Shown here in pieces: positions 2,466 through 37,984 of a stretch of DNA of 42,386 nucleotides (positions are counted from its first letter, which is position 1; every line of letters starts with the position of its first letter). The DNA comes from Patescibacteria group bacterium (GTDB taxonomy: Bacteria; Patescibacteriota; WWE3; UBA101185; UBA10185). The position numbers were made by a program, and so were the translations under genes. Below the pieces are notes generated by a model. It made no database searches, was not told where the DNA came from, and worked only from the letters and a program-made list of their open reading frames with translations. Where the stretch lies: NCBI GenBank assembly GCA_018825365.1, contig JAHJEV010000003.1, positions 66,284 through 108,669 of the forward strand, in the 5' to 3' direction.

Positions 2466-2613
2466 GGAGCAATTCTAACACTTTTAGAGGTACTCTGATC
2501 ACCTCTATTCATAATAGAATATAGGTAGTTGTAGTAGAAGCACTGTGATGTAAAATAACTGTACTCGAGAACTAAAATTGATAGTTTTGATCGTTGTATT
2601 ATTAATAGGTTCT

Positions 2614-3858
2614 ATGAAAGAATATTATTTAGACAAAATTTTTAAAAAAAGCAATAAGTACTTAACACAACTTTTTGATAAGCCAACGTTAGATGAGTTC
2701 GAAAGAAAAATCCATTATATCCACAAAGAAGAGGATACAAAAAAGGTAATAACGAAATTTATAAACGAATATACAAGCTTTGTAAAAAAAGAATTCCAGC
2801 GTCTTTATAAGTTATCTGATAAGAAGTTGAACAGTTTTTTGGAGGACCAGGATAATAAGGTAAAAGCTGTCTGGGGAGATTGTTATAAGGTATTGCGCTC
2901 AATGAAACCAGAATCTATACACTTAATGGTCACTTCCCCACCTTATTATAATGCAAGAGAATACACACAGTGGAAGGACCTAAAGGAATACCTTGCTGAA
3001 ATGCGACTAATAATACGCGAAGCTTACAGAGTTCTGGATAATCACAGAGTATTCGTGTTTAATGTGGGTGATATTTTTGATAACGATAATTTAGTTACAA
3101 AATCCGTTTGGGGTAAGAGAAGGCTTCCGTTAGCAGCGTATTTCATAAAAGTTTTTGAAGAGGAAGGATTCACATTTGTAGATGATTTCATTTGGGACAA
3201 GGGAGAAGTACAGAGTGAGCGTCACAAGAATGGTGACAAACCGTTCCCGTTTTACCAATATCCCACAAATTGTTATGAGCACATATTGATATTTCATAAA
3301 CACCGCTTAGACAAAACGAGGTACCCATGCCCCGTATGTGGAACGTTACAAGTGAGTGGTAACACACAGTCAGAACCTGGGATTCAGAGTTGGGAGTGCA
3401 AAAATAACGAATGTTTCACAAGAAGTAAATGTAACAGAGGAAAGAGGTTTTCACTAAAAACGTTGACTACTCAGTCCATGCAGCTAGATCAGCATATAAT
3501 ACCTGAGGAATTCGTAAAAAAGTGGAGAAGAGATATTATACGTTTTTCCCCAGTGATAAAAATAAATAGCAAGGGGGAAAATGCCCTTGGTCACACGGCA
3601 CCGTTTCCTGAAGATATACCAGATTTTGCGATCCGTATGTATTCTTATCCTGGTGAGAGCGTCCTGGATCCTTTTGCCGGTAGTTTCACCAGTGCTATCT
3701 GTGCACAGAAGTTAAGGAGGGTTGGCATTGGTATTGAAATAAATAAGAAACTGTTCAGAGATTCTATTCTAAGAAACATTAATAAAAAACTATCGATGCC
3801 CATTTTTCAAAAGGACTCTAGCATCATATCGGAATTCAATGGCCAAGGGTTTATTTAG
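2614..3858 (+). CDS. Site-specific DNA methyltransferase (beta-type motif order) with inserted zinc-ribbon-like segment
   Basis: TSPPYYNAREY (motif IV) then DPFAGSFTSAICAQ (motif I); CPVC...CKNNEC insert. ORF track starts at TTG 2578; ATG at 2614 is more likely. Confidence 0.85.
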   Translation: MKEYYLDKIFKKSNKYLTQLFDKPTLDEFERKIHYIHKEEDTKKVITKFINEYTSFVKKEFQRLYKLSDKKLNSFLEDQDNKVKAVWGDCYKVLRSMKPESIHLMVTSPPYYNAREYTQWKDLKEYLAEMRLIIREAYRVLDNHRVFVFNVGDIFDNDNLVTKSVWGKRRLPLAAYFIKVFEEEGFTFVDDFIWDKGEVQSERHKNGDKPFPFYQYPTNCYEHILIFHKHRLDKTRYPCPVCGTLQVSGNTQSEPGIQSWECKNNECFTRSKCNRGKRFSLKTLTTQSMQLDQHIIPEEFVKKWRRDIIRFSPVIKINSKGENALGHTAPFPEDIPDFAIRMYSYPGESVLDPFAGSFTSAICAQKLRRVGIGIEINKKLFRDSILRNINKKLSMPIFQKDSSIISEFNGQGFI

Positions 3859-3861
3859 ACA

Positions 3862-4962
3862 TTATTGATTGGTTATAATATCTCTTAATAATAATATAGT
3901 GTCTTTTATATCGTACGCACCTTGTATTGTATTGCAGTGTTTGTGTCCCCACCCCAAGTTGTAGGTATGGTGGTTAAGTTCTCCTGGCCTTAATCCCCTA
4001 ATGTGCATTAAAACGATCTCTGCCTGAGTGTTGTCCTCTTCTTCTCTACCTTCGTCTTGTGCAGAAACCTCAAAGAATTTATCAGGGGTCAACCCCTTGA
4101 GGCATAGGGGGCATATAGGCTGGCCAGATTCCTTGTCCCATGCTCGTATTTCACTTAAACTTTCAAAATTAAGTAGTGCATTTTCCTGACAATATTTTTC
4201 CACATGACCGAAGACTTTGTCGATATACTCTAAGACTTTTCCCGTATTTATGGCTCTTTGAATCCCTATGGCTAGATCTTCTTTAGAAGTAGAGTTAAAC
4301 ACGTTTATCAAGTAATCCTTCATTCCAGAAACCTTGAATATCATGTAAGACAATTGGTACTTTATTTTCTTTATTTCGCTTTCACTGGCGTAGTCATAAT
4401 CAAAATTTCCCAAGCCCGTCTGCTCTGGTATAGTTCGTAATCCGTATTTATTTCTAAGTGATTCTAAATATTCGGAGTTATTCGCTGTTCCACATATATG
4501 GGAGATTCTCTTGGGGGTTGTGTTGGGAATGAATAGACAGTATTGACCGGCCCACTGTTCGTCGTTGGGGACAGTGCTGCTTTTGGTGTATAGCTCGACA
4601 ACTTCGTCCCAATCTTTTCTGGAAGTAGTCTTACAAAAATGTCCAAATTTATCCCAATCTGGTATGGTCTTAAAATAGACGAATGCGTTACGACCAAGTG
4701 TTAAAGTTTTAGGAAAATCCGTCGCTACCTGCCCATTTTCGGAGAAATACTCATTGGGCTTGATACGAACGGCGTAACCTCTCTTAAAGTTGTTCAAAAA
4801 CGTAGGAGCTGTGCCCATGATCCTTTTATATGTGGATAATTGCATTATTACTCGATAAGACCTGCTGTTTCTACGTTTGTAGATTCCGTTACCGCTGCGA
4901 GCCTCACCTGTTTTATCTATTTTCTTTTTTAAGATATATGGAAAAGCGTCAGTACAGTTCAT
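3862..4962 (-). CDS. HNH-type restriction endonuclease candidate, BstXI-family-like
   Basis: CPLC...LRPGELNHHTYNLGWGHKHCNTIQG C-terminal HNH-like/zinc motif; convergent and 3 bp from the DNA methyltransferase. Confidence 0.6.
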   Translation of the reverse strand: MNCTDAFPYILKKKIDKTGEARSGNGIYKRRNSRSYRVIMQLSTYKRIMGTAPTFLNNFKRGYAVRIKPNEYFSENGQVATDFPKTLTLGRNAFVYFKTIPDWDKFGHFCKTTSRKDWDEVVELYTKSSTVPNDEQWAGQYCLFIPNTTPKRISHICGTANNSEYLESLRNKYGLRTIPEQTGLGNFDYDYASESEIKKIKYQLSYMIFKVSGMKDYLINVFNSTSKEDLAIGIQRAINTGKVLEYIDKVFGHVEKYCQENALLNFESLSEIRAWDKESGQPICPLCLKGLTPDKFFEVSAQDEGREEEDNTQAEIVLMHIRGLRPGELNHHTYNLGWGHKHCNTIQGAYDIKDTILLLRDIITNQ

Positions 4963-5023: not shown

Positions 5024-5106
5024 TAGTGGGCGAGAGAGGACTCGAACCTCCAACCTTTCGGATACGGTCCTAAGCCGTACGCGTATGCAATTTCACAACT
5101 TGCTCT
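5024..5106 (-). pseudogene. Decayed tRNA-Leu(TAG) copy / putative attachment-site remnant
   Basis: 5026-5088 identical to 16221-16283; the remainder is a degenerate match to the tRNA 5' arm (1 deletion plus several substitutions) and CCA is mutated to CTA. Confidence 0.85.
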
Positions 5107-5173: not shown

Positions 5174-5203
5174 TGGTGGGCTATGTGTTAGGACGTGCGA
5201 ACT
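5174..5203 (+). repeat. Cassette-boundary repeat copy a
   Basis: tggtgggctatgtgttaggacgtgcgaact. Confidence 0.75.
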
Positions 5204-8442: not shown

Positions 8443-8472
8443 TGGTGGGCCATCTGACAGAATGTGCGAACC
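8443..8472 (+). repeat. Cassette-boundary repeat copy b
   Basis: tggtgggccatctgacagaatgtgcgaacc. Confidence 0.85.
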
Positions 8473-10331: not shown

Positions 10332-10361
10332 TGGTGGGCCATCTGCCAGGATGTGCGAACC
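10332..10361 (+). repeat. Cassette-boundary repeat copy c
   Basis: tggtgggccatctgccaggatgtgcgaacc. Confidence 0.85.
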
Positions 10362-10490
10362 ACTACCTCCTGAGAATTCGTCAGTGCTGGCTAATTGCTG
10401 AAAACTGCGAAGTTACTTTAGTTGACAGGTTTGTGATTTTTAAATATATTTAAACTGCAAGTTAGTTTAAAGCTAACATCCAGTAGGAAT

Positions 10491-11063
10491 ATGCAAAAAG
10501 GTGACTATTTAACTACCATACTAAGATCAACTAAAACTGTCCTAACTCTTAAGGACATTGCTCTTTTATGGCAGGATTCTGATACCAACGCCGCAAGAGT
10601 CAGACTTAACTATTACGTTAGAAGGGGGCATTTGTGTCGTGTCCGAAGAGGTTTGTATTCCAAAGATAAAAACTACAACAAACTAGAGTTAGCAACCCGC
10701 ATATTCACCCCGTCCTACATTAGTTTTGAGACGGTTCTTGCAAAAGAAGGATTGGTGTTTCAATACCAAACCCAAATTACGGTTGCGTCCTATTTAACAA
10801 GAGAAATTATTATCGATAACCAAACCTACTCCTATAGAAGTATTAAAGAACCTGTGCTTATAAATACCTTGGGGGTTGAGCTTTCTGACGAAATATCAAT
10901 TGCTACCAAAGAGCGTGCCTTTTTAGATACTTTGTATATAAATACCGATTATCATTTTGACAACCTTAGATCCCTAAATTGGGATAAAGTATTTTCGATA
11001 TTACCAATATATAAAAACAAGCGTATGACCGGAACAGTTAATAAATTATTTAAGCAATCATGA
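10491..11063 (+). CDS. abiEi: AbiEi-family antitoxin / transcriptional regulator
   Basis: LTLKDIALLWQ..RVRLNYYVRRGHLCRVRRGLYSKDKNYNKLELATRIFTPSYISFETVL pattern; 4-bp overlap with AbiEii-like gene. Confidence 0.8.
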   Translation: MQKGDYLTTILRSTKTVLTLKDIALLWQDSDTNAARVRLNYYVRRGHLCRVRRGLYSKDKNYNKLELATRIFTPSYISFETVLAKEGLVFQYQTQITVASYLTREIIIDNQTYSYRSIKEPVLINTLGVELSDEISIATKERAFLDTLYINTDYHFDNLRSLNWDKVFSILPIYKNKRMTGTVNKLFKQS

Positions 11064-11755
11064 CCTTAGACATATCTCTACATAAGACGATCCTGTTTCA
11101 GATTTTGAAGGACATTTATTCTGATACCACGATCTCACCTTTTTTAGGGTTTAAAGGTGGTACTGCGGCATTGATGTTTTACAAACTTGACCGCTTTTCT
11201 GTGGATCTTGATTTTGATCTGTTGGATGAAAGTAAAGAAGATGAGGTTTTTGCTAAAGTTTTAAAAATTGCTGCTAAGTACGGTACGATAAAAGAATCAT
11301 ATAAGAAACGCTATAACTTGTTTTGTTTAATATCCTATGAGGATAAGGCTCGCAATATTAAGGTGGAGATAAACCGCAGACAGTTTGGATCAAAGTACGA
11401 AATGAAAACCTATTTAGGTATATCGATGCTGACAATGGTTTCTGAGGATATGTTTGCACACAAATTAATGGCTATGTATGAGAGAATGGGAAAGACGAGC
11501 CGTGATATTTACGATGTTTGGTTTTTTCTGTCTAACCGTTTTCCAATTAATAAAGAGATTGTGGAAAAACGCTCCAATATGCCATTTAAACAACTGATTC
11601 AAACGTGTATTTTACAACTAGAGAAAATTAATAATAACCGTATACTGGAAGGGCTTGGGGAACTGTTAACACCGAATCAAAAAGACTGGGCTAAAGCCAA
11701 ACTAAAAGAGGAAACAATAGCCTTACTAAAACTTCGTATAGAAGCAGAAAAATAA
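11060..11755 (+). CDS. abiEii: AbiEii/AbiGii-type nucleotidyltransferase toxin
   Basis: FLGFKGGTAALMFYKLDRFSVDLDFDLL nucleotidyltransferase motif. Confidence 0.88.
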   Translation: MTLDISLHKTILFQILKDIYSDTTISPFLGFKGGTAALMFYKLDRFSVDLDFDLLDESKEDEVFAKVLKIAAKYGTIKESYKKRYNLFCLISYEDKARNIKVEINRRQFGSKYEMKTYLGISMLTMVSEDMFAHKLMAMYERMGKTSRDIYDVWFFLSNRFPINKEIVEKRSNMPFKQLIQTCILQLEKINNNRILEGLGELLTPNQKDWAKAKLKEETIALLKLRIEAEK

Positions 11756-11816
11756 TATCTGATAAATAAATTCCGGTGGGTTTAGCAAATATGAAGTTGT
11801 TATAACAATAAAAGCG

Positions 11817-11846
11817 TGGTGGGCCAAGTGTCAGGATGTGCGAACC
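11817..11846 (+). repeat. Cassette-boundary repeat copy d
   Basis: tggtgggccaagtgtcaggatgtgcgaacc; the preceding ~25 bp also match the flank of tRNA-Leu(TAA) at 37899. Confidence 0.88.
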
Positions 11847-15296: not shown

Positions 15297-15322
15297 AGGA
15301 TAGCTCGTCGCGATGTGCGAAC
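15297..15322 (+). repeat. Cassette-boundary repeat copy e (degenerate)
   Basis: aggatagctcgtcgcgatgtgcgaact; only the GATGTGCGAACT half is well conserved. Confidence 0.5.
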
Positions 15323-16218: not shown

Positions 16219-16301
16219 TGGTGGGCGAGAGAGGACTCGAACCTCCAACCTTTCGGATACGGTCCTAAGCCGTACGCGTATGCCAATTCCGCCACTCGCC
16301 C
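16219..16301 (-). tRNA. tRNA-Leu (anticodon TAG), CCA encoded
   Basis: GGGCGAG/CTCGCCC acceptor, TACGG CTTAGGA CCGTA anticodon arm, T-arm GGTTCGAGTCC, variable arm. Confidence 0.93.
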
Positions 16302-35510: not shown

Positions 35511-35564
35511 GTAGATGAGTTGAATAATCAGGAAACAATACTAATGTGCTTCCAAATTAGTATT

Positions 35565-35594
35565 GGTGGACCGAGTGTCAGGATGTGCAAACTA
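35565..35594 (+). repeat. Cassette-boundary repeat copy g (array 2)
   Basis: tggtggaccgagtgtcaggatgtgcaaact. Confidence 0.8.
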
Positions 35595-35636
35595 TGTATA
35601 TCATCAGAACATCAATAGAAGATGTAAAATAAACGT

Positions 35637-36551
35637 GTGGAAACTCTTGAAGAAAAATTAAAGCGCGTTAAATTAGTTTTTAATATTGACGAAGTTATAA
35701 GCAGACGTACAAACCTGGATGATATTAAAAATTATTATAGGGTTAATATAATCCCCTATTTTCTTTTTCATAATAAACGAGACTTCGTTCATAATGGTAT
35801 ATCTAGAGGCAAAAGATATTCGGATAAAGATGTATATGAACAGCCCAAAATAGTAGAAAAATATATAAGAGAGATGGGTGCAAAAAGGTGTTTAGAATTA
35901 GCGACTGGAAAAGGAGCCTCAAGTTTTTATTTAGCAGAAATATTTCCCAACGTAAAATTCTTTGCTATTAATCTTGCTGACGGACAGTTAGAGATTGCTA
36001 AAAAGAAAGCCCGTCGAGTAGATAACTTCTTCCCAGAAGAAGGAGACTACCACGATTTAGGCAATTACCATGATAACGACTTTGATATAGTATTTGTGTT
36101 TGAGGCTCTTTGCCACAGCAATGACAAGGGAAAAGTCGCAAAGCAGGTATACAGACTGTTAAAGCAAGGTGGTTTGTTTATAGTCATTGATGGTTACTTA
36201 AATAAACCGTTAGGTGAACTTAGCGAAACCGAATTGTTAGCAAAAAAGCTTTCGGAAAGGGGGATAGTAGTAGAAAAATTCGAATTATATGACGATGTTA
36301 AGAAAGACATCGTTACAAAAGGTTTTCAAGTAATATATGAAAAGAATGCTTCTCTCTTGGTCCTACCTTCCTTGTATAGATTTGAGAAACTATCTCATGA
36401 AGTGCTTTTTAGAATTCCTTTGTTTGGAAAAATGATAGTCAAATTACTACCAAGAGATTTTGTTAATAACGCTTTGTCAGGTTACTTAATGCCCACTTTA
36501 ATCCAAACTAAAGTAGCTTGCTATTGCATCACTGTTTTTGAAAAGGTTTAG
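35637..36551 (+). CDS. SAM-dependent methyltransferase (class I)
   Basis: CLELATGKGASSFYLAEIFPNVKFFAINLADGQLEIAKKKA; GTG start. Confidence 0.85.
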   Translation: METLEEKLKRVKLVFNIDEVISRRTNLDDIKNYYRVNIIPYFLFHNKRDFVHNGISRGKRYSDKDVYEQPKIVEKYIREMGAKRCLELATGKGASSFYLAEIFPNVKFFAINLADGQLEIAKKKARRVDNFFPEEGDYHDLGNYHDNDFDIVFVFEALCHSNDKGKVAKQVYRLLKQGGLFIVIDGYLNKPLGELSETELLAKKLSERGIVVEKFELYDDVKKDIVTKGFQVIYEKNASLLVLPSLYRFEKLSHEVLFRIPLFGKMIVKLLPRDFVNNALSGYLMPTLIQTKVACYCITVFEKV

Positions 36552-36586
36552 TGTTGTAATTATGTCGTTATGATAACCAAAAGTCG

Positions 36587-36616
36587 TGGTGGATCATCTG
36601 TCAGGATGTGCGAACT
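36587..36616 (+). repeat. Cassette-boundary repeat copy h (array 2)
   Basis: tggtggatcatctgtcaggatgtgcgaact; preceded by gtcgttatgataaccaaaagtcg. Confidence 0.85.
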
Positions 36617-36662
36617 GAGGTAAAGTTTCTGAAATGCTGGTAAGAAAAAATCTGCGTTACTG

Positions 36663-37805
36663 TTACTCTGGAATATTTAAGGCATCTCTAGTTTTGGGGT
36701 TCTTGATTCCTTTTCTACCCGCATCCACTCCGTGGGCATTGATACATCTATCAATATAGAAAAATAGATTTTCTAAAGTGCCCTCGTAAAGTTGGACACC
36801 TTCCTCATGCATGAGTTTCTTTCCAATAACAAGTGCTCGTGCCCAGGCATTACGTTCATGGAGAGCCGTAACAGTCGCTTGAAACTCGTCGCTTTCTTTA
36901 CTAAGACGATCGGCCACGACCTTTAGCTCACTTTTTACGCATTTCGAGATACCGTCCTGCGCTGTGTCCTGCCTATTTGCCTCAGTATGAGCATAGATTT
37001 CTCTTAGAATGTTTCGTGCCTGCTCATTCAACATATTTTCAAAATCAGCTAGCGAAACCCCCGTGGCCTCAACCCGACGGTTTAACGGATAATTAGCGTG
37101 CGCGGAAAGAGTTGTTTCAATAGAAATAAATTCATGTGTTTTCACTTCCAACAGATTATTTAGTCTTTCCTCAACTTGGGGATTTTTGTAATCTGGGTTT
37201 AAGCCGACAAAAGAGCCCAAACTATCTGAGTTTACATTAAGAAATAATTGTAATGCGCGGAACTGCTCTGAAATCAAACTCTCCTGTTGTCGTTCTTTGG
37301 CGTTTTCTACGTAATCCCATGCGTGTCCTATCTCATGTAATATAGCCAAAGAAGAATCTTTAGTCTCGCCAACTAACAAACCCGTTACCCCCTTTTCTTT
37401 AGCTACTGGCAAACCGATAATGTGCTCCATATCGAAGTAATAAGGACTCAATCCTTCACATTCGTTTATAGATTTAGGGTCCCCGTCCACACTAAGTACG
37501 CCAAGAAAAGTAACTCCACTCGGTAAATACTGGTTCAGGTTCACGTCTTTTATGTAGACCGAAAGCGCCTCTCCTACTCCGCCATGAATTTTTGCGCGGT
37601 CAACATAATGTCCAGCCTCTAGCGTAGCTTTACAATCATTCCAAAAATTTGTCATTAGCTGTTGGATTTTGGGAGCATCATATACCTCTCTACCAATGGA
37701 GTGGCGACTTTCGTTTTCTGCCAATATTTGTAACTCTTCATGTGTCATTTCATATTTCGAGTCGGTACCCATCTGCGTCGAAGGGAAAGTTGTTTCAGAG
37801 GTCAT
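36663..37805 (-). CDS. HExxH metallopeptidase-like protein
   Basis: SSLAILHEIGHAWDYVENA zinc-peptidase motif. Confidence 0.6.
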   Translation of the reverse strand: MTSETTFPSTQMGTDSKYEMTHEELQILAENESRHSIGREVYDAPKIQQLMTNFWNDCKATLEAGHYVDRAKIHGGVGEALSVYIKDVNLNQYLPSGVTFLGVLSVDGDPKSINECEGLSPYYFDMEHIIGLPVAKEKGVTGLLVGETKDSSLAILHEIGHAWDYVENAKERQQESLISEQFRALQLFLNVNSDSLGSFVGLNPDYKNPQVEERLNNLLEVKTHEFISIETTLSAHANYPLNRRVEATGVSLADFENMLNEQARNILREIYAHTEANRQDTAQDGISKCVKSELKVVADRLSKESDEFQATVTALHERNAWARALVIGKKLMHEEGVQLYEGTLENLFFYIDRCINAHGVDAGRKGIKNPKTRDALNIPE

Positions 37806-37898
37806 AATTGCATTTTAGCATTGAAATTGGTGAAAAGTGCAACTCCTTCTTGTTCTTGGGTTTGCCGAAAGCGGAGTTGTTATAACAACCAAAAAGCG

Positions 37899-37984
37899 TG
37901 GTGGGCGAGGAGGGAGTCGAACCCTCATCAGCCGAAGCTGACGACATTTTAAGTGTCGCGTGTATGCCATTCCACCACTCGCCC
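37899..37984 (-). tRNA. tRNA-Leu (anticodon TAA), CCA encoded
   Basis: GGGCGAG/CTCGCCC acceptor, CGACA CTTAAAA TGTCG anticodon arm, GGGTTCGACTCCC T-arm. Confidence 0.92.

Follow-up and report, generated by a model that had tools for sequence, protein, structure and literature searches.

In this study, we report tandem arrays of very small gene cassettes downstream of intact tRNA genes in a genome of the candidate division WWE3, and propose, with a probability of roughly 0.8, that they arose as integrase-less cassettes were inserted one after another, site-specifically, at the 3' ends of tRNAs through an enzyme working in trans. The window, meaning the whole stretch of 42,386 nucleotides that was analysed (C3:66284-108669), belongs to a tiny genome (G000; 732 kb in four contigs), for which own-genome searches and selected stretches are the basis of the results. 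Relatives were drawn from a set of 27 WWE3-family genomes and from wider sets of 189 relatives and 380 phylum genomes, and the genomes compared are largely metagenome assemblies.

Layout of the arrays and their border motifs

Array 2 consists of two one-gene cassettes behind tRNA-Leu(TAA), located on the minus strand at 37899-37984 (ARAGORN; comparison of the 3' ends of all tRNAs), and the last 8 nt of this gene, GCCCACCA (37899-37906), are the part held in common with the repeats. The first cassette (37898-36587) begins with a start motif, S, which comprises the palindrome GTTGTTATAACAAC (37876-37889, minus strand; 14/14 match, 10-23 nt past the tRNA end) and a degenerate inverted copy of the tRNA T-arm, GGAGTTGCAC (37837-37846, minus strand; 8/10 match). 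Its cargo is a 380-aa protein (36663-37805, minus strand) with a zincin-like HEIGH motif, read directly from the ORF translation; the protein gave no significant match in Pfam, NCBIfam or PDB and falls into no known family. The cassette is closed by the repeat E, GTTCGCACATCCTGACAGATGATCCACCA (36587-36615, minus strand), identified by repeat searches and the shuffle test. The second cassette (36586-35564) starts with GTTATCATAACGAC (36564-36577, minus strand; 11/14 match at the expected distance), encodes a 304-aa SAM-dependent methyltransferase on the plus strand (35637-36551; Pfam Methyltransf_31/11/25) and ends with the outermost repeat E, GTTTGCACATCCTGACACTCGGTCCACCA (35564-35592, minus strand), beyond which start-motif scoring found no S. 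A previous sequence-only reading had described two repeats here in a series ending at a minus-strand tRNA-Leu(TAA) gene, with a lone methyltransferase and an HExxH ORF as cargo, and this was confirmed: both repeats are real, have the same orientation and a motif in common with array 1, no chance matches arose in shuffles, and the two genes lie on opposite strands.

Array 1 is anchored on tRNA-Leu(TAG) (16219-16301; ARAGORN), which start-motif scoring found to be followed by S. Further out, repeat searches located a degenerate repeat (15298-15322) and copies of E at 11817-11845, this one again followed by a scored start motif, at 10332-10360, at 8443-8471 and, outermost, at 5174-5202; all of these features are on the minus strand. 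One of the cassettes, at 10332-11816, encodes an AbiE toxin-antitoxin. A third array, outside the window, lies behind tRNA-Val(GAC) (C3:61241-61927) and holds one small-kinase cassette. Most cassettes are ~0.6-3 kb in length with 1-2 genes, and the cargo of arrays elsewhere includes AbiE toxin-antitoxin, DUF4037-type nucleotidyltransferases, HD hydrolases, LysM plus amidase proteins, peptidases and a small kinase-like protein. Just outside array 1 there is a decayed copy of tRNA-Leu(TAG) (5026-5105; 90% identical, with a broken acceptor stem), beside which a BstXI-like restriction-modification locus occupies 2578-4962. That two arrays of one kind, both anchored on tRNAs, are not a coincidence had been argued before and is upheld. 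With up to 3 mismatches allowed, the window contains four copies of the repeat pattern, whereas 100 dinucleotide shuffles gave an expectation of 0.00.

The repeat is 29 nt long; its minus-strand consensus is GTTCGCACATCCTGACAGATG plus GCCCACCA and reads GTTCGCACATCCTGACAGATGGCCCACCA. Comparison of repeat and tRNA divides E into 21 nt of the element followed by the 8 nt GCCCACCA equal to the tRNA 3' end, and the idea that the repeat is a plain tRNA fragment had to be given up, as only these last 8 nt agree. Variants of E keep the ends and differ in the middle (GTTCGCAACCTGGTCAACGATGGCCCACCA in G022 and G023). A description of E as an 11-6-11 pair of inverted half-sites was dropped (7/11 in E1 and 3/11 in the variant E2, by hand count).

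S, which lies past the tRNA end or past an internal repeat, is a T-rich stretch and then the palindrome GTTGnTATAACAAC 8-14 nt downstream. A score of at least 10 of 14 was obtained at 16 of the 23 internal or tRNA-proximal sites and at none of the 8 outermost sites (Fisher p 0.0008), with a background of 6.4% in random windows and 2/21 among tRNAs taken as having no adjacent S-type cassette. The presence of S at internal sites and its absence at outermost ones are in line with cassettes that begin with S and end with E. The match to S drops the farther a site lies from the tRNA (rho -0.70, p 0.0025, in a small sample); no S was recognisable at 7 of the 23 internal sites, and some cassettes begin with a different sequence (L128:15452, L027:3170). 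At 5/24 sites S also contains the T-arm of the tRNA in inverted form when at least 8/10 positions are required, compared with 1.8% of random windows.

Alternatively, these motifs might be normal regulatory elements or terminators of tRNA-Leu that were copied by homologous recombination, and S does sit where a tRNA terminator would be. This reading is hardly credible, given that array-less tRNA-Leu genes of relatives have no E and mostly no S, and that E is tied to cassette ends and is common across genera while the cargo changes.

Target tRNAs, distribution and cassettes common to different genera

G000 gave 48 tRNA calls, and the 3' end of each was listed; one call is the pseudogene at 5026, which leaves 47 intact genes. 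Five of these terminate in GCCCACCA, namely Leu(TAG), Leu(TAA), Val(GAC), Leu(AAG) and Val(TAC); the T-loop is GTTCGA in the first three and GTTCAA in the other two. The GTTCGA T-loop and the GCCCACCA end thus coincide in only three of the 47, and exactly those three carry arrays, a choice that would be made by chance with a probability of 6e-5 (1 in 16,215), the rule having been framed after the arrays were seen. Anchoring had been attributed to tRNA-Leu, which stands for both arrays of the window but does not extend to the genome, where tRNA-Leu AAG, CAG and CAA stand without an array and tRNA-Val(GAC) is followed by one. The anchor rule that fits G000 would accordingly be worded as a GTTCGA T-loop plus the 3' end GCCCACCA, and not as leucine as such. 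In G001 and G002, of the same genus, tRNA-Leu(TAA) ends in GGGCACCA and has no array, consistent with this rule. An empty version of exactly the array-2 locus was not found among the relatives; the nearest is that of G001, with ~720 bp from tRNA-Leu(TAA) to the next conserved gene.

The tRNA-Leu(TAA) gene of G000 is 81-83% identical to that of two same-genus genomes, in which it has the GGGCACCA end, and 92% identical to that of G023 of another genus, while tRNA-Leu(TAG) is 96-99% identical within the genus, and for this reason the tRNA-Leu(TAA) gene may have been replaced horizontally.

Strong matches to E were found with a sequence model in 10 of the 27 WWE3-family genomes. Outside the family, a tighter pattern gave no match in other families among the 189 relatives, and a looser one gave a single GC-rich match, probably by chance, in the 380 phylum genomes; a scan of named genomes returned only WWE3/Patescibacteria contigs (e.g. 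MEVN01000021.1, JAHYJU010000003.1 and MEWJ01000055.1). Wherever the contig reaches far enough, the matches sit downstream of tRNA-Leu(TAA/TAG), and once of tRNA-Val(GAC), in the same relative orientation, and in G000 itself the repeats occur only downstream of particular tRNAs; the repeat series of G002 and G022 lie on contigs that stop before any tRNA. Two tRNA-Tyr genes and a tyrosyl-tRNA synthetase gene are placed between two E repeats in G003 (L022:4490-9893), and partial copies of the 5' part of tRNA-Leu(TAG) occur upstream of the intact gene in two genera (L022:1703-1980, L026:8753-8787).

The cargo had been thought to look mobile, and comparison across genera agrees. One cassette is common to two genera, lying behind E in G003 (L022:12968-13663) and directly behind tRNA-Leu(TAG) in G023 (L026:8928-9622), with 79% DNA identity against ~68% for the adjoining core genes. 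A DUF4037 cassette lies behind E in G013 (L023:12327-13241) and behind the variant E in G026 (L028:11376-12289), with 75.5% identity, and the homology of both cross-genus cassettes begins at the CCACCA end of the site. Stretches of 2 kb are common at 85-90% to G022 and to G025/G023 of a different genus. Content at the equivalent site also varies between close relatives (G025/G026; G000/G001-G003): in G025 and G026, of one genus, the outermost repeat and the chromosome flank are common (87%) and the inner cassettes differ. Likewise, the methyltransferase/HExxH synteny of array 2 is not conserved, the HExxH gene having no homologue among 56 relatives and neither gene matching the array of any relative. 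Both refuting checks put forward in the previous sequence-only reading were carried out, and neither overturned it. The presence of some of the same cassettes in relatives of other genera indicates that the cassettes are mobile.

Proposed mechanism and candidate enzymes

In the proposed mechanism, a predicted circular form of the cassette would bear a junction made up of E (GTTCGCACATCCTGACAGATG), GCCCACCA and S (nnTTTTTnnGTTGnTATAACAAC...), and a site-specific recombinase, presumably acting in trans, would swap strands at a putative exchange site within the GCCCACCA common to cassette and tRNA. Each time, the tRNA would retain an intact 3' end, with the S of the cassette now behind it, and the E of the cassette, together with GCCCACCA, would move to the far side, beside the former downstream DNA. 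A later cassette would again use the tRNA as its point of entry, or else an older E, with the result that all repeats would point in the same direction and the newest cassette would tend to adjoin the tRNA. No recombinase gene was found in the array-2 cassettes, and none was seen among the annotated array genes. An identity of 8 bp suits the overlap of a tyrosine recombinase, and for this reason we infer that an enzyme of the tyrosine type is the likelier, the candidates being the housekeeping Xer or a helper absent from these genomes.

Such a helper could be the integrase of a visiting phage or plasmid with the same attachment site, the cassettes being its satellites, and we regard this tentatively as a possible source of the enzyme, since the cassettes have no integrase and helper-dependent elements are common. 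Three scans, however, found no viral contig with E or the variant E2. The extra tyrosine recombinases of five relatives (G008, G011, G012, G014 and G017) were considered as autonomous parents and rejected, as none adjoins a tRNA-Leu/Val array with E, although two of the contigs (G014 and G017) are only ~3 kb long.

It is rather doubtful that the host's housekeeping Xer (~340 aa, beside rnhB and gyrA) is the mobilising enzyme, hijacked as in IMEX phages and pdif modules, even though no other tyrosine recombinase found in G000 is catalytically complete. Genomes with the repeats each encode two tyrosine recombinases, of which the second is a family-wide Xer-like protein (~295 aa; L021:1156-2028, L068). 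In the two copies read (TGATISEL and TGITISEL) its first catalytic arginine is missing, so it may be inactive as a recombinase. Xer is, however, present in nearly all family genomes whether or not they have the repeats, E is not a clean inverted pair of half-sites, and a search for dif with the canonical Xer pattern gave a match count like that of the reversed-pattern control, so that no dif was recognised for comparison with E. GC-skew sampling of G023 for the terminus and dif revealed no clear switch. Both tyrosine recombinases of G000 match XerC/XerD best and neither is near an array. More speculative still is a wider picture in which the arrays are an integron-like cassette collection lacking an integron, where one-gene integrase-less cassettes enter at the 8-nt 3' end of three tRNAs, are moved by the host's housekeeping Xer and spread genes among genera of an ultrasmall, reduced-genome lineage.

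Mobilisation in trans by a large serine recombinase, as in the ssrA islands of Dehalococcoides, appears improbable. Of the 27 family genomes, 18 have genes for such enzymes, 9 of the 10 repeat carriers among them, and in Dehalococcoides, too, the repeats combine a motif from outside the RNA gene with the tmRNA 3' end (PMC3146451). Against this, the WWE3 genes adjoin other tRNAs (Lys, Glu, Gln, His, Pro, Trp, Asp and Asn), E is absent near those examined, the distal repeat, where found, is a different one (...GGTGAC followed by exactly 21 nt of tRNA sequence that begins at the T-loop), and the copy in G000 has an in-frame stop codon. No serine recombinase module lies beside the tRNA-Leu/Val arrays, and a T-loop crossover with duplication of ~20 nt of the RNA gene, of the Dehalococcoides type, is not seen there, only 8 nt being common. 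Large serine recombinases were rejected as the driver, and those examined were placed in another element family that targets tRNAs and has its own form of repeat. In this family, which resembles the Dehalococcoides ssrA islands, the recombinase gene lies ~1 kb downstream of many different tRNAs (L185-L204, L031). Two apparently non-coding units of ~180 bp, one after tRNA-Leu(TAG) (L022:2129-2308) and one after E (L022:11975-12153), each terminate in a GTGAC motif joined to the 3' end of the tRNA and are likely a non-autonomous mini-element of the serine-recombinase family.

An integron or CALIN, with E as an attC site recombined as a folded single strand, would account for one-gene cassettes, one-way repeats and a preferred entry site, yet it is very improbable, as most E-S and tRNA-S sites fold no more strongly than shuffled sequences do, in G000 the NCBIfam integron models stay well short of their cut-off and an integron integrase is absent, and the entry site here is a tRNA end.

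Relation to known systems and significance

Part of what is proposed here, serial insertion of integrase-less cassettes at tRNA 3' ends, is known already, namely the addition of cassettes at tRNA genes and repeats composed of a non-RNA motif and an RNA 3' end. In Dehalococcoides, ssrA islands stand in tandem behind one RNA gene, with a far-end repeat in which a non-RNA-gene motif precedes the RNA gene 3' end; the repeat keeps 20 bp of ssrA, 16 islands bear a serine-recombinase module, and some have no integration module (PMC3146451). In contrast, the WWE3 arrays keep 8 bp, have cassettes that mostly measure ~0.6-3 kb with no recombinase present, and use three different tRNAs. Additive flexible genomic islands of streamlined genomes consist of gene cassettes joined at tRNA genes by site-directed recombination, with tRNA fragments as repeats (PMC5217437, PMC7771536, PMC10872708), for example the last 20 nt of tRNA-Lys (PMC10872708). 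The WWE3 units are similarly downstream of an intact tRNA gene, but their repeat is mostly conserved non-tRNA sequence, its tRNA-derived part, GCCCACCA, is with 8 nt shorter than that example, and in many cassettes the start is marked by another conserved motif. Tycheposons are given as elements of 4-200 kb associated with a tyrosine recombinase (PMC10872708); they resemble the WWE3 arrays in tRNA-anchored cargo and genome-streamlined hosts and differ in that the WWE3 units are far smaller and have no tyrosine recombinase at the tRNA. The pdif modules (Xer modules) of Acinetobacter (PMC7399989), and integrons, are also small gene modules with short recombination-site borders that are mobilised without an enzyme of their own, but they have no tRNA anchor, and no identity with dif or attC was recognised for the WWE3 sites. 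A search of the open literature, with subscription papers mostly outside it, returned no description of such arrays for WWE3/Katanobacteria. What is new is that several features come together: the cassettes are very small and integrase-less, two motifs are conserved at their ends, three tRNAs have the 8-nt target in common, and the host is WWE3.

Gene acquisition in Patescibacteria, with genomes of ~0.7 Mb, is poorly known. The arrays offer a definable cassette whose start and end are recognisable from motifs, a target that follows a predictable rule, and cross-genus copies, so that genomes and metagenomes permit a direct count of gains and losses. They also provide a clean case of recombinase-less elements, so that the question of what moves them becomes testable.
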